Part shown: one piece after another, positions 11,396 to 55,800 of the stretch | Layout: every line of letters begins with the position of its first letter | Numbering within the stretch: position 1 is the stretch's first letter | Assembly (NCBI RefSeq): GCF_028858725.1 | Contig: NC_084761.1 | Span: 33,510,501 to 33,574,500 of the forward strand | Direction: 5' to 3' | Source of the DNA: Colius striatus | Taxonomy: Eukaryota > Chordata > Aves > Coliiformes > Coliidae | Length of the DNA: 64,000 nt | Notes under the pieces: generated by a model | Told to the model about the DNA's origin: nothing | Databases searched by the model: none | The model's input: the letters and a program-made list of their open reading frames with translations, nothing else | Made by a program: the position numbers and the translations under genes

Positions 11396-11550
11396 CAGAG
11401 AATCCTAGAATGGTAGAGTTTAGAAGGGACCTCTAGAGGTCATCTAGTCCAACCCCCCTGCTCAAGCAGGTCCACCTAGATCAGGTCACACGGGAACGTG
11501 TCCAGATGGGTTTCGAAAACCTACAGAGAAGCAGACTCTACAACTTTGCT
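11396..11550 (-). mobile_element. CR1 LINE fragment, 5'-truncated
   Basis: Reverse-oriented CR1 3' end: AGAGAATCCTAGAATGGTAG, then AGAAGGGACC, GGTCATCTAGTCCAACCCCC, AGGTCCACCTAGATCAGGTC and the AACCTACAGAG block. Mutated relative to the younger copies. It lies about 250 bp left of the telomeric insert but is not part of it. Confidence 0.9.
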
Positions 11551-11803: not shown

Positions 11804-11853
11804 AATACATTCACATATGCAAACATAAATAATTTCAGTAACCATATAACTCT
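11804..11853 (+). repeat. left copy of 50-bp direct repeat flanking the telomeric insert
   Basis: Starts AATACATTCACATATGC and ends CATATAACTCT. It is identical to 15515-15564 at 49 of 50 positions; the single difference is T at 11839 against C at 15550. It lies immediately outside the first degenerate telomeric repeat. The pair has the layout of a target-site duplication but is far longer than those left by LTR elements or typical LINE insertions. Confidence 0.93.
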
Positions 11854-12025
11854 AATCCTAACCACTAACCCTAACCCTAACCCTAACCCTAACCCTAACC
11901 CTAACCCTAATGGACTAACCCTAACCCTAACACTAACCCTAAACGTAACTCTAAACCCTAACCCTTATGACCCTAACCCTAATCCTAATGACCCTAACCC
12001 TGACCCTAATCCTAACCCTAATAAC
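11854..12025 (-). repeat. interstitial telomeric repeat array, (CCCTAA)n on plus strand
   Basis: Seven uninterrupted CCCTAA copies at 11869-11910, with degenerate copies on both sides (CACTAA, CCTAAT, TGACCCTAA, AAACGTAACT). The G-rich TTAGGG strand is the minus strand, so the array sits at the 3' end of whatever the insert carries on that strand, as at a natural chromosome end. Variant repeats concentrate towards the body of the insert (right side), the arrangement usual in proximal vertebrate telomeres. Further isolated telomeric motifs occur at about 12180-12195 and 13320-13335. Confidence 0.95.
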
Positions 12026-12324
12026 CTTCTCCCACAGCCTTGATGCTACACAGCTCTGTCTGAGGCCAAAGCATCAGGCTTCAAAGTAATAACTGACACA
12101 CTGCTTCACATCAACCCCCGTAACCCTTGGCTTTGCTTTGATTCTGAGAAACTTGACATAAGCGCTCTCCCCGGGAATCCCTAACCCTAACCCCAGCCCC
12201 ACAGCACTACCCAAAGCCCCACAGCACTACCCAAAGCCAAAGCCCCAGTCACTACACAAAATCTCTAAAAGCCAAAACCCCAAAGCCCAGGCACTACACA
12301 AAACCCCTCCCTGTAACTCCTAAC

Positions 12325-12528
12325 CTTGTCCGCTCCTCCCGGCCCCGTCATGGCATTATCCCAGTACTTAACTTGAAGAGCCACAGGTCCGATTCCAAGA
12401 GTTGTGTCGGGTGCTGCTGCAATGCGCTGCTCCCACGCTGTGTCCACACAACGGCAGCACCAAGGCGCTCTGCTTGCCCCTTGTGTCGTTATTTGGAGCA
12501 CAGCTTCAGTCTCTGTCTCTGGAAACAG
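12325..12528 (-). pseudogene. exon-like open block, unit 1 of insert
   Basis: On the minus strand, a GTTTCCAG acceptor precedes base 12528 and a GTTAGG donor-like site follows base 12325. The 204 bp stay open in one frame that continues beyond both boundaries (12265-12663). The predicted peptide begins ETETEAVLQITTQG and resembles the opposite block in unit 2 only weakly. No known protein family is recognised. The donor overlaps a TTAGG motif, so it may be fortuitous. Confidence 0.35.
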
Positions 12529-13920
12529 AACAAAACAAGTCACCCAGATGCAAAGCCCAGTCACTAAGCAAAACCCCAAAAAGCTCACTTGCTGTACAAA
12601 GCCCCAGCTCCTCAGGAGCCAAAGCCCCAGCTCCTCAGGAGCCAAAAGCAAACTGACATACACTCAGTGCTCTTCAATCTGTCCTTGACTCTACACCCCC
12701 AGGCAGAGCGGTTCTAAGGCAAACACACACATATAAACACCGACACCGCACAGAACATGGACAACACAACACAGAAGTGAGAAGACTCGGCGACACAATG
12801 CCTGGACTGGAGATTCCCTAAAGTAAAAACCTATAGGGCTGTGACAAAGAAGCGAGGCTCCACGGCAAGCACACAAAGGGGCAAAGGGAACAGCCCGGGA
12901 TGAGAAGTTACTGTCGAGACCGGGATGATGGATGCGCAAGAAGCCTGACTGCGAGTCCCAGAGAATGCAGTGATGAAGGGAGTGAGACTGAATCTCAGAA
13001 CAGGGATACCTACTGAGAGGAGCTGCTGACGCAGCCTGGAACACCATACCGAAGGAAACGACTGACAGAGAACTTCAAGATGTGAAGCCGATCCACAGCT
13101 TACATTTCTTATGCAAGAAAAGAGGTGCCTGACCGACACGGAATCATGACATTTGTTCTTCGAGACCTCGGGGAAGGTGCCCGAGTCACGTGTCATGGTC
13201 CTCATGTGCAAAGAAGACTTCGAGATTCAAGGACATCCTGAGATGGAAAGGACAGACAACACGACACTCCACACAGAAGCTGGAACTGCCCTGCCTGGTA
13301 CATCCTGGCTGCCTCTTAAAACCTAACCCTAACTCTTTCCTTGCCTAAAGGAGAGAGTTTCCAAACAACCTCTCTCCACTGCTACCCTTAAAACCCCATC
13401 CTGCAATTCTCAACGTCATCTCCTCCTCCTTGCCCCTCCCCGATCCTTTTGCTCAATTTAACTTGCATGATGCTCTTAAGTCTGTCTCTGTGGCAATTAC
13501 ATCGCTAACTGAGGCCTTTCTTTGGGTGCCACGTTACTCTTGGGTGTCGGCAACCTGATCAAAAGAAACCCCACGAATGGGACAAATGGTGAGCATCGCA
13601 TCAGCCTACATTGACCACCACTGTGACAACCACCCCCTCCAAAGGCAGAGGTGTTTCGCTCACCCTGCTCCTTCTGGAGTCCTTGTCATCCAGCTGTTGT
13701 CATCCCTTAGGCACCACAAACCCACAGGGATCCCCATCTCTGGCTCCTTTACCTTGGCCTCTAGCCCTCCACCTGGCTGATGTGGTCCTGCTGTATCAGG
13801 CTGAAGTTCCTCCTGTGAGACACAAACAAGGGAATCTGGTAAATTCATCACCCATGACCCCTGAAAACAGCTGCTTTAGCCCCTGGTCTCTGCTCACCTG
13901 GCTGAATCCTCTCCAGTGCC
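12365..13920 (-). repeat. tandem unit 1 of the subtelomeric insert
   Basis: Aligns to 13950-15480 with an offset drifting from about 1577 bp (CACAGCTT at 12499 and 14076) through 1546 (TGAGAAGTT at 12901 and 14447) and 1524 (AACTTCAAGA at 13071 and 14595) to about 1502 (GCACC at 13711 and 15213). The drift shows many small indels, so the duplication is old. Splice-like signals are weaker here than in unit 2; for example the block opposite 15029-15056 has lost its donor. Confidence 0.75.
13773..13812 (-). pseudogene. exon-like block, 40 bp, unit 1 of insert
   Basis: Minus strand: GTTTGTGTCTCACAG acceptor before base 13812, then 40 bp that can read EELQPDTAGPHQP, then a GTGGAG donor-like site. 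Function unknown; could be part of a non-coding RNA. Confidence 0.4.
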
Positions 13921-13949
13921 GATGACCTGGCTCCATCATGCCTTCGAAC
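13898..13949 (-). pseudogene. exon-like block, 52 bp, between units of insert
   Basis: Minus strand: GTTCTGTTTTGAAG acceptor-like tract before base 13949, 52 bp ending in CAGCCAG, then GTGAGC donor. The end CAGCCAG is shared with the block at 13773-13812, suggesting the two arose from one exon. Confidence 0.42.
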
Positions 13950-13992
13950 CTTCAAAACAGAACGCAAAACACAGCATCATGTAGCGGTACAT

Positions 13993-14096
13993 CTACTCAT
14001 CGCACTCTTCCCTCTCCCTCCACATCATCGCTAATCTCTCAGCAATCCGGTCCATCCCCGGGTTGCTTTCTGGGGCACAGCTTGTCTCCTCTGTGT
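13993..14096 (-). pseudogene. exon-like open block ending in a stop, unit 2 of insert
   Basis: Minus strand: TTTTTCTCTCTGTCTTCACAG acceptor before base 14096. After two bases a frame stays open for 33 codons, reads TEETSCAPESNPGMDRIAER and on to MWREREECDE, then TAG at 13993-13995. It may be a terminal coding exon, or the GTAGAT at that point may be a donor. No known family is recognised. Confidence 0.42.
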
Positions 14097-15028
14097 CTGT
14101 GAAGACAGAGAGAAAAACAAATCACCCAGAGGCACAACCACAGACAAACAGTTCCAGAGCTCAACACTCTACAAAGTTGTTCAGAATTCAACTCCAGCCT
14201 GTCGTTGCAGCAAATCCCTAATGCTGGGCGTCACATCCCCCAGGCAGAGCAGCTCTGAGCCCGACACCCATGTGCTGAGACCGACACCACGGGGAACGTG
14301 GACGCTGACATACAATAGGAGGCAAGTCCCAGCAAGAGAACGCCGGACCGGAAACGCCATTGAGCAAAAAGGCCCGTGGGGCTGTGATGCTGAAGCCAGG
14401 GGACTCTGGGGCAGCCCCACACAGGGGCAAAGGTAACAGTCCGGGATGAGAAGTTCCTGTCCAGACAGATAATGGATGCATAAGAAGTCTGGCTTCAAGG
14501 CTGAGAAAGTCACAGATGAAGGGAACTAGACTCTGCCTGGAAAAGGATGACTCGAGAGCGCAGTGGCTGATGTCTTGGAACAGGACCAATAGAAAACTTC
14601 AAGATGTGAAACCAATCCACAGTTTCCGATGCCAGAAAAGCGGCGGCCGATTGCCACCAGAGTGGTGAGGACTGCAATATGAGACCGTAGGGATGACGCC
14701 TGAGTCGCGTGCCGTGCTCCTTGAGCACAAACAGGATTTCAGGACCTGAGGAAGTTCCAAGACACAGAAAACAGACTACAGGACAACACACACACAGAAG
14801 CTGCAGCCACCCTGCCCAGCCTATGTTAACTGTCTCCTAAAAGCTCACCCTAAGCCTTCCCTTTCCCAAAGCAGATGGTTCTCAAAGAGCCTCTCTCCTC
14901 TGCTCCCATAGAACCCCCACCTTACGATGCCCTACGCTGTCTGCCCCTCGCCTCCCCCTCCCTGATCCCGTCCCTCAACTTAACTCTCGTATAGTCTGAA
15001 GCCCATCTCCACTAAAACCGGGGTCCAC

Positions 15029-15056
15029 CTGCAGGCGCCACGCTTCTCTTGGGCAT
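15029..15056 (-). pseudogene. exon-like block, 28 bp, unit 2 of insert
   Basis: Minus strand: TTTTTATCTCTTTGCAG acceptor, 28 bp, then GTGGAC donor-like site. It is preserved as similarity in unit 1 (around 13540) but there the flanking splice dinucleotides are gone. Confidence 0.38.
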
Positions 15057-15170
15057 CTGCAAAGAGATAAAAAGAAATCCTACAAATGATGCAAGTGGTG
15101 AGCATTGGAGTGACAGATGTCAACCTCTGCTCTGACAGCCACCCCCGATAGCCTGAGAGGTTCCACTCAC

Positions 15171-15216
15171 CTGTTCATTCCAGAGTTCAACGCTGCTGCT
15201 GTCGTCCCTTAGGCAC
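15171..15216 (-). pseudogene. exon-like block, 46 bp, unit 2 of insert
   Basis: Minus strand: TTCTGTCTTTGAATCTCAG acceptor, 46 bp, GTGAGT donor (consensus). Only one frame is open and reads CLRDDSSSVELWNEQ after one base. The matching unit 1 block (13664-13713) reads CLRDDNSWMTRTPEGA, so the first five residues are shared although DNA around them has diverged. Confidence 0.5.
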
Positions 15217-15300
15217 CTGAGATTCAAAGACAGAAAATAATCGTGGAGCTTCTCCAAATGCATTGCCCCCGACACCCTCCTCGCTACCAGCCTGGCTCAC

Positions 15301-15332
15301 CTCGAATGCTGCAGAGGCTGTCCTCACGGCCC
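15301..15332 (-). pseudogene. exon-like block, 32 bp, unit 2 of insert
   Basis: Minus strand: TTTTTCTTGTTTTTCAG acceptor, 32 bp, GTGAGC donor. Reading frames open in this block do not join in phase with the blocks on either side, which argues for a non-coding or decayed transcript. Confidence 0.45.
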
Positions 15333-15409
15333 CTGAAAAACAAGAAAAACACTTCACTGCCTTGCAGCAGGAGAGTTTTAAACACCATCAGGGATGACAT
15401 CTGCCTCAC

Positions 15410-15465
15410 CTTTTCAGCCTCCTCCTCGGTGTGTGGCTTCACCCCTCTGAGGCATCTTATAGCAT
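15410..15465 (-). pseudogene. exon-like block, 56 bp, right end of insert
   Basis: Minus strand: TTTGTGTTTTTTGCAG acceptor, 56 bp, GTGAGG donor. The only open frame reads AIRCLRGVKPHTEEEAEK after two bases. It shares the CLR start with the block at 15171-15216, hinting at an exon family. Upstream of it the insert ends in AT-rich intron-like sequence cut off by the 50-bp repeat. Confidence 0.5.
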
Positions 15466-15514
15466 CTGCAAAAAACACAAATAAGAAACTAAAACATATA
15501 ATGAGATAATACAT

Positions 15515-15564
15515 AATACATTCACATATGCAAACATAAATAATTTCAGCAACCATATAACTCT
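15515..15564 (+). repeat. right copy of 50-bp direct repeat flanking the telomeric insert
   Basis: Matches 11804-11853 at 49 of 50 positions. To its right the sequence returns to ordinary AT-rich intergenic DNA. Removing 11854-15564 would restore a continuous AT-rich stretch, as expected for an empty site. Confidence 0.93.
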
Positions 15565-18500
15565 TTTACTATTTTTCATTACTCTACTGGTAAAAATAAT
15601 GCTGAAAATTTATTACAAGAATCCATATGAAAGTAGTAACATAAAGTAAAATGATCATAAAACCAATCATATATTTTATAGGAAATAGGAGGATGAAATC
15701 ACTTCATGTGAGGTTTCTCTGCTGCAAAGCAATTTATCATTTAAGAAAAGATAACTTTCTGCTGTGCTTAAGCATTTAATGTGTTCAACTTCTTGAGACC
15801 CATGCAGGAATGGGAATAGTGTTTTTTTATTTTCAATTTCAAAAAGGTTTACTCATCACTGGTCATGCTAGCAGAACTGTTCAGTGCCAGTGGTAGAGCA
15901 ATTTGCCTGTTCTGGTAAGTTTGCAAGAGTTATCACTTTCGGTTTACATTCTGAAATTTCAGGCATTTTGCACACATCTTCCTTTAGCTTTAAAAGATCT
16001 TAGTTTCCTAATCCCCTAGAACTACTTCATTGGCCTCAGTTTTGGGATGTGGTCAAATTTAATGCATAAATACCACAATTTTAGGAAAATAAACCCAAAT
16101 TTTATGGTACACTGCTTTAGAGAGACTTACAGTTAATTCAACTGAGGTAATATTAAGAATGAGCTTGGAGATCATACACTTCACAAAACACCACTGTGTG
16201 ACATAGGCTCCTTTTATTTACCCTTTATAACCCTTGATTTGTAGCGTTATTTTATTTGCATTATGGGAAAGTTCCATGAACATCTCTGGGCAGTAAGTTC
16301 AAATTAGATCAGCCATGTTATTCCAGTTTATTTCCCCTATTTTATTACAGGATACTAAGCAATGCAAACGTTCTTACTTAACAGCCCTATGTTTCATCTT
16401 GTAACTCCGTTCTAAAAATATGGTTGCAATCTGAAGAGGAATTCTCCTGTAGCCATCCACATAAGCTCCATGTGTTGCATCTTCAGAGGACACTACACCC
16501 TTCTGAGTAATTTTTATGCAATATAGTTGAAGATAATTTTTTATATTCAAGCTCTACTCTCATAATGGTATGTGTTGGTATCTGAAAAATGCATATAACT
16601 ATTCATCTTGGCAAGCTAATAAGGTGCAGAACTAAAACCTTCTAGATTTTTTTAATGTTACGGTATTTAGTGGACTATGGTTCTGTTTATTACCAAGCTA
16701 GTTGTACAGTATTCTCTACAATTAGAAAATAGCTTAGTCATAAACAGCACTGCAGAAGATCCAGTCTACACTTCCCTTTTTAAAGTCACAGTCAGTGACA
16801 AAATAGAAGGAAGGACTTGTCACTTGAGTTCAGTAGTCTTAGACTGCTGTAGAACAGTTGGTATGACCTGTTACTGGGATGGGGAGAGGAGGAGTGCACA
16901 CAGAAGGAAATAAAGTGAGATCCAAAACCTTTCACTTCTCATCAAAAAGAAGTAACTGTTGTTCACATAAAAGTGTACTGCTTTAAGGATAGGAATATCA
17001 GTCCCAAGGAAATTGTAAAAATATCAGGCTAGAGCACACCTTCTTTGAAGTTCAACATTTACAGAACGTGTTTTCTCCCTTCACTAATTTTCTTAGCTCT
17101 TGGCTGTCTTCCCAGGCAGCAGTTTCTCAGGCTACTGTGTTGTGATCTAAATGCTAGGCCAGGTTGTAAGCTAACTTCAAATGCCTAGTAAAAAACAGAG
17201 CTTTAAAGTCAGCATTTCCTACCTATTAAGTGTACTGTTTCTCCTAAACAATTTGTGAATTTGCTCATAGCAGTCACCCTGTTTCCCTGTGCAATTACTT
17301 GATTAGCATTCTGACAACAGATCTATGTATAGTACTGAAATCTTTCACTTCTCACCAAACTCCCTGTCTGAAATTTTGCTCCCTTAACAACTGTTGGTTC
17401 AAAACCTATGCTTCCATTTTTTTCTTCCTCCTGAACCATCACATCTGATAACCTGAACAAAATTTCTTCCAGACCCTCCCAGGAGAGTTTAAGCAAATAT
17501 CTGCTTGTATTTTTTTTTTTCTTTTTTTCCGTAAGATATAGTCATAACACTGTTAGTGACCTGGTTAAACCATCATATTTCTGGACTTATTCCATTGCCT
17601 TTCATCTGCATTTACTCCTTTATTACTGAGCTGAAATCCAGCTCAGTGGAGCTACATATGTGGAGGATTTGATCCTTGTAAAATCCTATAACGTTGTTCA
17701 ACAGCTATCACACAAATAGGAATGAAAACATAATCCTGAGCTAAAATCTAAGAAATTGACAATAATTTTTAGCATCATGCCATGGAGCAGGAAAAGGATT
17801 TCATTATAGTAGCTGGGCCAACTGTCAAAATGATAGGATGCACTTGATTCTGAGCTTTGGTTTCACATAGTAATCAAGTGTATTATCATAACAACTGCTA
17901 GTCTGTCCCCTTTTCAGGTCTAGCATACTGATGGAGCAAAAAGAGAGAATGTATTTGACTCTCTGGTATAAACAAATCAAACAACAGATACCTCTGCAAA
18001 GATTTGTAAGCCACATTGCTTCACCTTCCTCAGCAGAGAGACTACAACTCCGAAAAGAGATCAAAGGATTTGGTGGAAGGTTCAAAGGGAAAAGATCATT
18101 ATTTTATCTATTTATTGATTTTCCTTGTAATCCTTTTTTTTTCTTTGTTTTTATTTCCATCTGTCTTATCTCCCTATCAATGACTTTGTTTTGGAAATAT
18201 GGCCTTCTGTGGAGATCTTAAGTGAAGGACAAAACCTGACAAATCAGAGGTCAAAACCCATTCAGCTCTCCTCTTATCAGCTCATCTGTCTGGCACCAAA
18301 AATATTACTCCCATAGTATTTGAGAGTCTAAATTTTGTGTCTTCCAGCAGTTTCTGGGGCACTTGTGTTTTGGACGGTTGTCAATACTTGCTCCTCTCTC
18401 AGGCAACTGAAAGCATGGCAATCCCCAGGCCTTGAAGATAGGGACGTATCTTCAATTTCATCTACAAAACTTAAAGTGGTAGGTGAGTTCCCAAATCACT

Positions 18501-28375: not shown

Positions 28376-28684
28376 CGGTTGGGACATCCCTTTTTTCTAT
28401 AGTAGCTACAACAGCACAAGGGGTAATAGAATGAAGCTGGAATACAAAAAGTTCCACTTAAATATAAGAAAAACTATTTCACTGTGAGGGTGAGGGAGCA
28501 GTGGCACAGGCTGCCCAGAGGGGTTGTGGAGTCTCCTTCCTTGGAGGTCTTCAAGACCCACCTGGACACCTTGCTATGCGACCTGATCTAGGTGAACCTG
28601 CTTCTGCAGGGGGGTTGGACTAGATAATCTCTAAAGGTCCCTTCCAACCCCTACCATTCTATGATTCTATGATTCTATGATTCT
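28376..28684 (+). mobile_element. CR1 LINE fragment, plus orientation
   Basis: Runs from CGGTTGGGACATCCC through GGATGAAGCTGGAA-like sequence, GTGGCACAGGCTGCCCAGAG, TTGTGGAGTCTCCTTCCTTG, the CCTGATCTAGGTGAACCTGC block and GGTCCCTTCCAACCCCTACC. It ends in three ATTCTATG tail repeats at 28662-28684. It is one of only two plus-strand CR1 copies here and aligns with 60240-60528. Confidence 0.95.
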
Positions 28685-31600
28685 AATGAGGTACATTGTA
28701 TCTCGATTTGATAAATAAGAGGGCTTTTTTACGGGGAAAAAAACCAACCAAAACCAACAGAATCTTATGTTTAAAAAAAAAAAAAAAAATAATTTTCTTT
28801 CTGTACAGCTTCCCATCCCTATCTTGTGTTCTGTCATCTGGGAACCTTGCTGTTATAGAGCATCACCTCAAGGCCCAAGTTAGTAGGAACCCTTTGAAAT
28901 GATACACTGAAAGTGAAGTACATCAGCATCTAGCTATCCTGTGGTGTAAAGGAGGCCCTCAAGACAGGTTCAACTTGGTAATTATCCACAAGAGCCTCTA
29001 AGACGTGTTCAGCTCCAGCTGATTTCAATAGGAAGCCAGTTTATTGTCTCAAAAACATTTTTATGAAATATATTTAGTTTATAAATGAAATATGTTTCTC
29101 CTCCTCTATCTCCCCTTCTCTCCTGCCACCTGAATTACAGACCCTTTGGACAGGATTATGAAACTGCAGCTAGGTTATCTTCCTCTTATGCACTATGACC
29201 TGTACATGGGGTTTTAAGACCAAGCTACATTTCATAGAAAGCTAACTGAATTGGGTGAAACAGGTGTGCTGCACTTTTTCCTATTGAGCTTTAAATAATA
29301 TGTCATTTGCATCTTAGAAACAGATGATGACATAAGCAGCATCTGATCTGATTTCCTTTTAAAGGAAGATACCATACCAACTAATCCATGTATTTATAAA
29401 AATGCACGTGTTACCTTTTTATTTCATTCAGCACTCACTTGCAGGGATATGCTAAAGGATATTCATTTCTTATACCAAATTTACAAAACCCAGTATCTTT
29501 GGGTTGTTATCACCAAGAACCACAGAAACATGAGTTCTTTCCCACTATAAAAATATGTCTACTTTGCCAGTGATAAACAATTGCTCAGTTCTCTGAAAAC
29601 GTGACTACAGAAATAGTTCTTATTTCAGCAACAAATCCATTCCTGAAGTGGGATCAGAGTTACATCTGCTGAATTTTAGCGATAAAAAAGAGTTTTCTTC
29701 ATGTCAGTCTCTGGAGCTGTAGCAGGTAAGAGCACATGCTCTGGAATCCAAGGACAGAAGTCTGACATATTGTTAAATGCAAAACTTACTAAAGACTGTA
29801 AGCGCCCAAGAGCCTGGCGCTCCCAGTGCATGTCAGCAGTCGTGTAGGCTGCTCAGCAGTGCAGGAGCATCACTCCTTAGGGACTTTACCTCTTGGGCTA
29901 TCATTTGCTATCAAGCAGAGATATATGCAGTAGAGACTTTGTTAATGAGATGAGTAGCTTTGCTACTTCTCCACAAAGAATCAGGATGAAAGCATGCTTA
30001 TTTACCTTTGATTTGATGTATTATTTTCCTGGGTGTCAGGCATAGCTGATATTTAAACACAGCTGCTCCTGTAGATGCAAAGATAGGAACTAAGGCCCCA
30101 GCACTATATACACAAGAATTTTAGTAGCTTCTAAAAAAGCTATGTAAGAACTTCACTGAATAAGCTAAGAATTACAGTAGAGGACTTCAGGGTCTTCATC
30201 AGGGAGAGAGGAGAGAGACCTCTTTAGCAAGAGGAAATTCTGGAGTTGAGTAGCTGTAGCAGCTCTTCACTTAACAGCTTCTTAGCCTCCAAAATTCCTT
30301 TAATTAACAGCCTCGGAGAGAAAGAAGTTACAGATCTACAGTCAATCTTCCTGCTTCTAGGCTCCAATCCATTTATTCTCCTATCAGCTAGTTTGTCAGG
30401 TGAGAGAAAATATTTGTCATTATGTGTAAAATCTGTGTCCTCCTATACTCCAAAGAACTCTCAATGTCTTTGATGGGACCAGGGTTAAGTTTTGACCATA
30501 AATGTCAGTATCTGATCTTAGGAAGATCAAAGCCAACAACTCAGCTTCGAAAACTTAATAATTAGGGCTGCTCTTGACTCATTTTTGAGTTGATATGAGA
30601 TGGTCATCAATACCCTTACTCAAATAAAAATGGAGCCTCAGTTCCTGCACAAAATCAAAATAAATGTTTCTATATGACACTCAGGGCCTTTCCTCTGTTG
30701 TTTGTCCAGTCCAGCTCAGCCCAGCTGGAAGTCCTGGCTGGGGAGTATTGCTCTGGTGCATCCTTGACCTCCCACAGGAAAATCAATGGCACAGAGGTCT
30801 CGATGAGCATCCATCTTCCTTTCAGAAACTCTTCTGCCTGTAACAGTATCACCCCAAGGAATTAAAAGGACAGCTCAGTTTCACTGTCTCTACAGAGATG
30901 GTGGTATTTATTGGTTTAACCCCTAAACCATAAACACAGTCACAGGACCATAAATGTAAATATCTGCTGGAAATACTACACTAGGGTTTCTATTTAGTAA
31001 CTGTTATTTGGCCGTCTTCAATTAAGTAGATTAAAATTACTTCTCAGTAGTTATTTTCCATTGCTTTTGCTGCCTTCATCCCTCATTCAAGATCAGAGAA
31101 AGAGTAACTGCATTGATGGCAATGCTTTCATAGTTTGTATGGCACAGAAAGTTTTCATATAAGAAAGAAAGGAAATATACATGAATGACATAGTGAAGGC
31201 ACAAGGGAAAGAGGAAAGTAATTTAGCAGAACATTTCAAATGTTTTAATAAATCATACACTTACACTGAAATGTCACTTTAGTGAGTTTCCCTTATGCTG
31301 ATCGCTGAATGACAATATATTCTCTATGTGTATAGGAAAGGCTGTAATGCGCTGCTATGTTTGCACAGCATCTCTGAGGAAAAATACTGATTGGAGCATA
31401 AGCAATTTCAATTTTTACTACTACAGGTCTTTTCAAATAGCCTCTTAGTTCCGTATAAGAGTGTTGGAGAAAGGAAAATGAAATGTTAAAATGAACAATA
31501 TAAGCCAGAGATCTCAGAGTTCCTAAAAATATGAAATCTAGAAAAAAATGTATTCCTATTATGTTGAAAATGGAACAACTTTATGCTCTGCTGATTTTTT

Positions 31601-51924: not shown

Positions 51925-52187
51925 CGGCGCGGGAGCGCTCGGCGGTTGCTGCTGTGCCTGCGGCGCTGCCTTAGCCGGGGGTGGGGAAGCGGGGCCGCCG
52001 CCGCCGAGGTGAGGGGCGGGTGGGCGGGAAGGAGGGACGCAAGAGCGGCGGCCCCCGCCGCCGGGGCGGCATAGCGCGGCGGGGTGGGGGGAGGGCCGTG
52101 GGGAGGCGGCGGCGGCGGCCGCCTCCGCCGAGGCCTGGGCCGGCCCGCCGCCGCCGCCACTTGGCTGATGCGTCCGGAGCGGCCGCC

Positions 52188-52872
52188 ATGGACAAGATCC
52201 TGGAAGGGCTGGTGAGCTCGTCTCACCCGCTGCCGCTGAAGCGGGTGATCGTGCGGCGCGTGGTGGAGTCGGCGGAGACGCCACTGAGCCAGGCGCAGTG
52301 CCGCGCCATGTTCGCCCTCAGCACCCGACTGGTGCTGCAGGGCCCTGACCCCTTCCAGCGGCAGGTGGGGCGGCAGGTGCTGGAGGCCTACGGCCGCTAC
52401 CACCGCGCCGAGTTCGAGGCCTTCTTCAACCGCGGGCTCGTCCTCGGCCTTCTGCAGCGCGGCTACGGCGAGCTGAGCAACCGCGACCCCGCCATCCTCG
52501 ACTACATCCAGTCCGGGCTGCGCCTTATTATGAGCTGCCCCTCAGTGCTGGAGCTCTTCGAGCTGCTGCAGGTGGAAGCGCTGCGGCTGGTGTGCGAGCG
52601 GCCCGCGCCGCCGCTCTGCGCCCGCCTCTGCCAGCTGCTGAGCGACTTCCCGCAGTGCTTGCCCCGCGGCAGGAAGCTCTCACTTGCCTTCTGCCAGCAG
52701 CTGGTCCGCAGCATCGCCCACTTCCAGAGCCAGGGCAGCCGGGAGGCCGAGCTGCGCCTCTACGTCTCGCAGGTGACGCAGGTCAGCGGGCTCCTGCGCA
52801 GCGTCTGGAAGGCTGAGCCCGACACGCTGCTGCCCTCCCTGCAGGAGCTCTTCGCCATCATCTCCGCCGCCG
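52188..52872 (+). CDS. USP38: USP38 coding exon 1
   Basis: 685 coding bases, residues 1-228 plus one base. Start ATG at 52188-52190. Donor G|GTGAGC at 52873. Extremely GC-rich third positions compared with exons 2-5, because it lies inside the CpG island. Confidence 0.96.
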
Positions 52873-55800
52873 GTGAGCGCGGCTGAGGGCTGGGGGCGGT
52901 TGGGCAGGAAGAATGTAGATTAACGAGAATACTGGAGGGGAGCAGTTGGATTGGCCACAGAAAGGCAAAGTCCTACCGCTAGCTTGAGTCGTTTTGCAGA
53001 CATTGCCCAGGAGCCGGTACTTCCTTGCCTGGGTGCTAAAATGCAGTTTCTTGCTGCTCCCCCCACCTCGCTATTACTCCTTCCAAAAGGATACCTGAGG
53101 TCTTGGAACTATGTACCCCACACAATGGGGATGTACACAAGTAATGTGTAAAACTTAGGTGGTGTAGGAAGGATTTAGTGGCTGAATAATGTAGATGTGA
53201 TTGTAAATAGGTCCTTTTTTTTACCTTAGAATGCTCACATTGGAAAGTGCCTCTGCTGTTCAGGCACCTGGGAAACTTAACATTTTAACTTTGTGTTTTT
53301 CTGTAACTAGTGTGGTTAGCAGACATTTGTTGCAATAGGAAATGACTAATAGCAGCTGTGTTGTATCACTAACATGATTTCAAAATGTATGGTACTTTTT
53401 TTTTGGAAAAAGAACCGCTTTTCTTTTCCATTGAGGATGGAGGAGGAATTTGGCAGGTTGTTGCTTTACTGGGTGAATAGGAGATGAGCAAATGGAGTTT
53501 GTAATTCAGCACTATTCGTTGTCCTTAGTCCACTGAAGTTTTTGAGTTTTGTTTTGGTGATGATAGTGTTAGATGTAGGGTAGATGTATTGTCTCAGGAC
53601 TTTACAACTATGGTGAAGTTGTAGAAGAGAAGATAAAGCATATTTTTTTTCCTGTGGCTTTTTCTTTTTACTTTCTTATCTTATTTCGTGTTCAACTATT
53701 ACAGATACTTCGTTTGAACCTTCTGTTGCACTGGCAAGCCTTGTGCAGCACATACCGTTGCAGATGATTACAGTACTCATCAGGAGCCTTACTACAGATC
53801 CAAATGTGAAAGATGCAAGTATGACTCAAGCTCTGTGCAGGTATTGTATTTCATTGTAAAGCGGTGAAAAGTCTCTTCTTACTGCCTTGTTTTGAAGTTA
53901 CCTGTCACTTAGGTGCCATTAAAAAAAAAAAACAAACGGACAACAAACCAACAACCAGAAGTATCATACACTACCCAACCCTCTTTTAAGTGGTGTTATA
54001 AGTTATGCTGTTTAACACGTTAAGGTCATATATAAAATATGGATGTTGCTGGCATGATTTCAGTTGGAGATTGTTACTTTCATTGCTAATATAGTTTCTT
54101 TTTCATGCTTTGCTAGTGTGGGTGAAGAAGAGGGTTAAATAGGGGAAGTCAGCTGTGTTCCTTTTAGGTAACATCTTATGTTTAAGTCTTTATGTTTAAC
54201 CTTATGAGAGATGGCATAAATAGGAAACTTCACAGGTTTACAGTCAAGTGGAGAAACAAGGCCTTGTTTTGTGAAAATCAATCTTTCTACTTTTTCAAGG
54301 AGCAGAGTGGTTCTCACGTAACTATCTCACCCATTGTCTCCTCTGGAGGGAGGAGACGATTAGAAATGAGCTTTACTGCTTAGTTTTGAGGGATTTTTTT
54401 TTGCTTAGTTACCTTTATAACTTTTTAGTAGGATTTACAGGGAGGAGCCTCTATTTCCATCTTCACTCAAGCCTCCAGAGGCTTGTAGGGTGCTCTTTGA
54501 ATCATAGAAGAAAAGAAATGGTGTAAAACCAATTTCATTTTGTGCTTCTTGTCACTAATTTAAACATGAGTAAACACTGAGATGGGTAGTGCTGTTAACA
54601 CTGTGATGCAGATGACGGCTTCAGTTAATATTTTCAGATACGTGACAAGTAATGATGCAGAAGACGACAGTGGGAGAAAGATGAGGACCTTGAAGTTCTT
54701 GGAATTGTTTTTCAAAGCGTATGGAAAAAGCTGTTATTGAGTTACTGAAGGGTAGAAAAAGTGAGTGAAGGAGCTAAACAGGAGACTGTTAAAAAAATTG
54801 TATTGTTAAAAAACCCAAAACTTTTTTAGAAGGCTTTCAACTATAAGAATTTAATATTTGCTGTGTTATTTTTTTTAACTGCCTTCATTTGAGTGTAGTG
54901 TAGTAGTTGCATATCCTAGTGAAATACTGAGTTTTTTTCACACCAAAAACATTCCTTGTGTTTTCATTCAATTGAGGAGCCGTGTTTCATTTGAAAACAT
55001 AGTTGATGAGAAGAAGCAGCATTACTGTTGTAATTTTTCGTAAGACACATTGCTTAGGGACTTTAAAAGAATCCACTTGACTGAACAGATTTTGTCAAAG
55101 CAGTATGCCCAATCTAAAATTCAAAGCTGACTAGTGCGTAAGGATTTCTGTATGTGGATAATTTGCCAGTAATGTGCTCCTGGTTATTTTTGATGTTAAT
55201 GTATTTCTAACATTTATGTTGTGTTACCTGCTTCAGCACAATATGATTGCATCATTGTAGCTTTAGAATGGCTTCTATGTATGCTTCTGCTTTGGGAAGT
55301 AATGCAGTGCTGCATTTCCATTATTATCAAATAAGTGCTTTTAATACTAGCTATGTGGTGAATTTTTTCCTCTTATTTTTGAAAGAGCAGTGCCACCTTA
55401 CCTGTCTTGTATGTTCTTTGAAGAAATACTTGATTTTAAGAACCTCTAGTTATGTTCCATGAGACTAACTTTTTAGGTACTGTCATGCTTTGGCCCAGCT
55501 AGCACAGCAGCACCACGACAGTGTCTTACTCTGTGCCCCCCATTCACCTCCACCCTTGTTAAGACCCCAGTGAAATGGGAGTAAAAAGATAAGCAAGATT
55601 GTTGTGTATTAAAGCAAGAGCACAGAGGGCTTGCTGACAGTTACGGTTCTGGGCAAAACAGACTCCAGTACTCGACTTAGAGAAGAAAGTACAAAAGTTT
55701 ATTCTACAAGAAACAGAATGGAATAAAAGCAAAAAGGGAATAGGATGATGAGAAAATTACAACCAACACTTAAGTCTCCCTCCCCCATCCCTCTTTTCTT

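Follow-up and report, generated by a model that had tools for sequence, protein, structure and literature searches.

A rearranged chromosome-end segment with a telomeric tail between 50-bp direct repeats in the interior of a Colius striatus contig

In this study we analysed a stretch of 64,000 nucleotides of Colius striatus DNA (the window, C4:33510501-33574500 in a 1.21-Gb assembly), in which two 50-bp direct repeats enclose an insert of 3,661 bp (11854-15514) carrying a telomeric repeat array at one side. Contig C4 measures 99.9 Mb and therefore the locus lies tens of megabases away from either contig end. All comparisons were drawn from this single genome assembly. Read 5' to 3' on the minus strand, the insert consists of a short filler, three blocks designated A, B and C, and approximately 170 bp of TTAGGG repeats, which are followed by the second repeat copy. 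The features are listed below, J1 to J3 being the junctions at which chromosome-end sequence is missing.

11804-11853, no strand assigned: left copy of the target duplication, identical to 15515-15564 at 49 of 50 positions
11847-11853, plus strand: putative priming site formed by the target end TAACTCT, which differs from telomeric TAACCCT at one position (heptamer count)
11854-12024, minus strand: telomeric tail (TTAGGG)n of about 170 bp, pure near the target and with variant repeats on the body side
12024-12025, minus strand: J3, 2.9-4.1 kb of subtelomere missing, including the GACCTTTTGACC minisatellite; the segment is present in all seven ends read across
12025-12181, minus strand: block C, 157 bp of telomere-proximal subtelomeric sequence, relatives 88-94% identical
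12181-12205, minus strand: J2, 842-1,336 bp missing when measured from the closest B-type unit, and a short telomeric filler; the segment is present in the same six of six loci as that of J1
12230 (approximate start)-13715, minus strand: block B, a subtelomeric unit that appears to combine two sister units as a mosaic (unit comparison)
13715-13716, minus strand: J1, 294-295 bp missing at an array unit boundary; the segment is present in six of six loci examined base by base
13716-15508, minus strand: block A, one monomer of a subtelomeric tandem array minus 4 bp of the unit boundary (array comparison)
15508-15514, minus strand: short filler repeating target ATGTATT at the 5' junction (sequence comparison)
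15515-15564, no strand assigned: right copy of the target duplication, identical to 11804-11853 at 49 of 50 positions

The direct repeats described in the original prediction were recovered at these positions, and the only mismatch between the copies is a T at 11839 in the left copy and a C in the right one. When the right copy and its flank (window 15490-15600) were searched against the whole genome, exactly two places were returned at the sensitivity of the tool, namely both sides of the insert. Therefore, the repeat represents neither a chance similarity nor a dispersed repeat. Its length of 50 bp lies above the minimum of 5 bp that defines class 1 templated insertions of the long interspersed element (LINE) type. 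The prediction that the insert starts with (CCCTAA)n and continues into GC- and CpG-rich DNA unlike its flanks also held, since the insert body has 52% GC and an observed-to-expected CpG ratio of 0.41, compared with 0.13-0.14 in the flanks.

The insert body is subtelomeric in origin. Much of the insert was matched by contig ends of the same genome, with 21 of 160 candidates scored in this first look, and A-type as well as B-type units were present in all 17 stretches that were fetched. Block C, which lies farther endward, was found in 14 of these stretches but not within the fetched stretches C39e, C48e and C19e. When block C was searched in the genome, 40 of 50 candidate places, this locus included, were scored: 25 were located at most 20 kb and 13 between 20 and 320 kb from a contig end, so that 38 of 40 fell within 320 kb. 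The two interior places were this locus and C7:40.62 Mb. The block B query returned the same two interior places, with all other rows no more than about 370 kb away from a contig end; here 40 of 179 candidates were scored, and such lists of places are lower bounds. Reading onward from block C, seven of seven contig ends reached a TTAGGG telomere, while an eighth, C33, ran into N; at C7 and C34, the sequence continued into long TTAGGG arrays. Accordingly, the chromosome-end origin that had been proposed was corroborated.

Some ends of the assembly contain gaps (5,000 N at C14s, 82 N each at C17e and C19e, and 2,100 N at C33). Besides, the 13 block C places farther inside the contigs belong to subtelomeric blocks lying 30-310 kb from the ends of C15, C16, C17, C18, C23, C32, C7 and C8, and those of C32 occur in both orientations. 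This suggests stacked or duplicated chromosome ends or a scaffolding of end pieces.

Block A has a length of 1,793 bp, compared with 1,774-1,788 bp for the array monomers. Its identity to the array units was 86.6-90.3% for 19 of the 20 units compared and 81.5% for the remaining one, with the closest unit at C34. The corresponding divergence of 9.7-13.4% (19 units) and 18.5% (one unit) has to be seen against a mutual divergence of 0.2-21.6% among the array units themselves, and reflects family diversity as much as age. The two internal units of about 1.5 kb share just 65.6% identity across 1,032 aligned bases, and units of these kinds also succeed each other at contig ends. Therefore, these units predate the insertion, as had been predicted.

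The order and orientation of the blocks, A-B-C-telomere, are those of the chromosome end; if four pieces were joined at random, 2 of 384 arrangements would show this co-linearity (arithmetic). However, the chromosome-end order is not uninterrupted, as three segments are absent. The array boundary motif at J1 occurred 36 times in 18 loci. At J2, inspection by eye revealed the sequence GGGGCT, which is common to the minisatellite and to the sequence before block C, together with a GGGTTAGGGTTA-like filler. Each insert-type junction was found once in the assembly, at this locus, when J3 was searched as an exact pattern that permitted a gap of 0-10, and J1 and J2 with up to three mismatches. The three losses and the junctions found only at this locus show that the insert neither belongs to a family of mobile elements nor represents a continuous fragment. 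Thus, of the captured chromosome-end fragment originally envisaged, the origin stands, whereas its continuity does not, because segments present at all ends examined are missing.

The other interior place, C7:40.62 Mb (C7:40616001-40632000), serves as a control. It holds a continuous block of about 12 kb which carries all three segments missing here, and therefore chromosome-end copies in the interior need not lose them. This block terminates with degenerate CCCTAA repeats over about 100 bp, beside ordinary AT-rich sequence, and its right boundary is not fixed. A comparison of 200 bp of its left flank with the right part (16 kb read) gave at best 15 bp at 93%, which is not convincing as a duplication. 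We considered the C7 block as a second member of a family and rejected this, as it is continuous and differently bounded; it may be an old fusion, translocation or insertion.

The telomeric tail holds 16 perfect hexamers (CCCTAA on the plus strand) and, on the body side, the variant repeats GGGTCATTAGG, GGGTCATAAGG and GGGTCAGGG, once each. The variant GGGTCATTAGG was present in the proximal telomere of three of seven ends (C7, C25 and C11), and GGGTCAGGG was seen by eye in that of C13; neither was found in the telomere portions read of C23, C8 (about 50 bp of telomere only) and C34. As the variants of the tail are those of natural proximal telomeres, the tail was probably not freshly made by telomerase. 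Judging from these repeats, it was more likely copied or cut from a natural proximal telomere than synthesized by telomerase at the break. A search of the window against Rfam yielded no family at the gathering threshold and hence no telomerase RNA, although very short fragments would escape such a search.

At all seven ends, C7 and C34 included, a (GACCTTTTGACC)n-type minisatellite immediately precedes the telomere. Its last kilobase contains 1-11 AG dinucleotides compared with 19-22 expected per kb, and the next AG is that of the first TTAG of the telomere, so that the boundary resembles an oversized 3' splice acceptor context. The depletion is real but driven by one repeated unit and is therefore not independent evidence for splicing.

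With slightly more than even confidence, we favour a staggered break that was repaired by templated synthesis, primed on the telomeric G-strand and copying a chromosome end inward with three skips. The co-linear order with skips, the telomere-like priming site, the filler, the microhomology and the target duplication fit repair synthesis from a chromosome end. Moreover, the GGGGCT and the telomeric filler at J2 as well as the ATGTATT duplicate at the 5' junction, as judged by eye, are what would be expected of polymerases that switch templates or use microhomology. Two nicks about 50 nt apart would have produced the staggered break, and the exposed 3' end of the plus strand (...TAACTCT) may have annealed to the telomeric G-rich strand (AGGGTTA) with one mismatch or wobble. 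Heptamers as close to TAACCCT as TAACTCT number 132 of 16384 (0.7-0.8%, or 0.7% when weighted by local composition), and the target nucleotides are in register with the telomeric repeat, as in short interstitial telomeric sequences (ITS). Extension inward would then have copied the proximal telomere over about 170 bp, followed by blocks C and B and a single monomer of the array (A), presumably skipping three template stretches, rather than these having been lost from the source end or deleted later. Finally, the new strand would have been joined to the other side via the small filler, and filling of both overhangs would have created the 50-bp duplication. Overhangs of about 50 nt filled in on both sides had already been proposed; they fit the duplication, but are presumed rather than observed.

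Some points weigh against this reading. The source end possibly lacked the segments already, since the ends C14s and C33 are assembly gaps. J1 shows no microhomology. Moreover, block A is one monomer minus 4 bp, and therefore the start of the insert (15508) and the left edge of J1 (13716) share their position in the array register to within 4 bp, a coincidence with an estimated chance of about 1% which the model does not explain. Such a shared register would result if a circular monomer had been opened at a single point.

A special case of the same repair synthesis, which overlaps with it in probability and which we put forward only tentatively, involves an RNA template. Here, a reverse-transcribed RNA of the telomeric repeat-containing RNA (TERRA) type, running from the array into the telomere, would have annealed with its UUAGGG 3' tail to the target end of the staggered break, and reverse transcription would have jumped or read a processed template in a germline event. 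The polarity matches, with the subtelomere 5', the telomere 3' and the tail on the priming side. With its length of about 170 nt, the tail also resembles TERRA tracts, for which the literature gives pure-tract means of 222 and 284 (PMC12242772) and about 200 nt (cited in PMC3928237), unlike the telomeric DNA at C34 that runs for at least 5.2 kb. However, PMC3928237 also reports telomeric RNA whose repeats have a median length of about 1.3 kb, and the C7 block keeps the three segments and yet has a telomeric stub of about 100 bp, which weakens the argument from tail length. TERRA-templated insertion has been postulated as a hypothesis (PMC7215372). Concerning a processed template, a GT immediately follows the left edge of J3 in those copies in which the end of block C was read, and in seven of seven ends the first TTAG of the telomere terminates the minisatellite, which is rich in pyrimidines and depleted of AG. 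Removed introns at J1 to J3 would have spoken strongly for an RNA template. Nevertheless, we rejected them: at -1.8 bits the donor of J3 is very weak, whereas the insert retains 11 donor-like sites that score above 7 bits; J1 is not GT-AG, and J2 is better described as a deletion at 6 bp of microhomology. Against an RNA template, the insert also has no poly(A) at its 3' end, where the telomeric repeat joins the duplication directly.

Alternatively, a DNA fragment from a chromosome end already devoid of the three segments, or losing them after the insertion, may have been ligated into the staggered break. Subtelomeres rearrange quickly, J2 sits in a variable minisatellite with its 6-bp microhomology, and some chromosome ends are unassembled, all of which would agree with such a source. 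We nevertheless regard it as rather unlikely, because none of J1, J2 and J3 was found elsewhere in the assembly and three separate losses would be needed.

ITS are usually attributed to telomerase or to fusions. A telomerase-made sequence at a break, of the type described by Nergadze and colleagues, to which subtelomeric DNA was added would account for the telomere-like target end and the target duplication, as both are seen at such loci. However, the variants shared with natural proximal telomeres, the attached subtelomere of about 3.5 kb and the lack of a telomerase RNA family match in the window make this explanation very improbable. The same applies, even more so, to an assembly artefact or a relic of a chromosome fusion: the locus is known here from the assembly alone, but a misjoin is not expected to give a unique 50-bp duplication with AT-rich flanks on both sides, and a fusion leaves no target duplication. 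The mobile unit with a telomeric tail that the original prediction had offered as its second option would combine a target duplication with a terminal simple repeat, but is the least probable explanation, as the scored candidates included no second copy bounded in this way, J1, J2 and J3 were each found once, and the sole other interior relative listed, C7, is continuous and differently bounded.

The insertion had also been called fairly recent on the basis of one mismatch in 50 bp. This corresponds to a divergence of 2% with a 95% confidence interval of 0.05-10.6%, which is too wide for dating, and we discarded this approach. The CpG ratio of the insert lies at the low edge of the range of 0.41-0.58 found in four subtelomeric stretches and above that of the flanks; this retained CpG excess fits an insertion that is not very old and agrees with the earlier claim.

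Regarding the neighbourhood, the frame 51975-52886 contains what resembles the start of USP38, in line with the original prediction; the insert would accordingly lie about 40 kb upstream of USP38. The sequence at 11400-11540 of the window resembles the end of a CR1 element, and a (ATTCTATG)n run at 28656-28685 is of the kind typical of CR1 tails, consistent with a bird genome. A Pfam search with ten translated frames of the insert gave a single sub-threshold match to Bap31 (E 0.0005; 20.4 bits with a cut-off of 22.7 bits). We did not accept it as coding content, since it lies partly over duplicated target sequence, and treated it as chance. Exon-like pieces with strong donor sites were noticed on the telomere-ward strand at 15297-15466 and 13663-13875 (minus) and also in homologous array units; the frame of one of them is that of the Bap31 match.

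The locus provides a testable case of break repair in which chromosome ends, and possibly also their RNA, serve as templates for sequence placed inside chromosomes. If true, the RNA version would represent the in vivo event that was raised as a possibility in PMC7215372. Other avian subtelomeric repeats were reported to be transcribed on oocyte lampbrush chromosomes (PMC4301066). In the excerpts of the open-licence literature, we found neither a TERRA-templated germline insertion nor one that combines subtelomere and telomere. Further examples may be searched for as proximal telomere variants and subtelomere blocks between unique direct repeats.

Among known systems, the insert resembles the short ITS of Nergadze and colleagues (PMC2246262, PMC7215372), which are telomeric insertions at double-strand breaks with register nucleotides at the target and occasional duplications; a target duplication alone was described for 3 of 66 horse, 6 of 130 rodent and 4 of 25 primate loci. 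In contrast to these, the telomeric part of our insert has the appearance of natural proximal telomere and continues into about 3.5 kb of rearranged subtelomere, a structure that telomerase alone cannot make. In the TERC-ITS (PMC8537989) a telomeric repeat is likewise joined to a second templated sequence, but there copies of the telomerase RNA flank the repeats, whereas the sequence attached here is subtelomere. TERRA, including the spliced HAC-telRNA (PMC3928237), is similar in transcript polarity and in the shorter of the reported tract lengths, although splicing is not supported at the insert. Templated sequence insertion polymorphisms (PMC5110952) share the insertion of a copy of a distant locus and comprise class 1 with a target duplication and class 2 with microhomology and non-templated additions. 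According to this review, no such polymorphism contained telomere sequence, but three insertions in a cut-site experiment did. Our insert mixes both classes, as a long duplication without poly(A) occurs together with filler and microhomology. Its footprint is thus distinct from that of the usual ITS, comprising proximal telomere and rearranged subtelomere in chromosome-end order within a clean 50-bp duplication.

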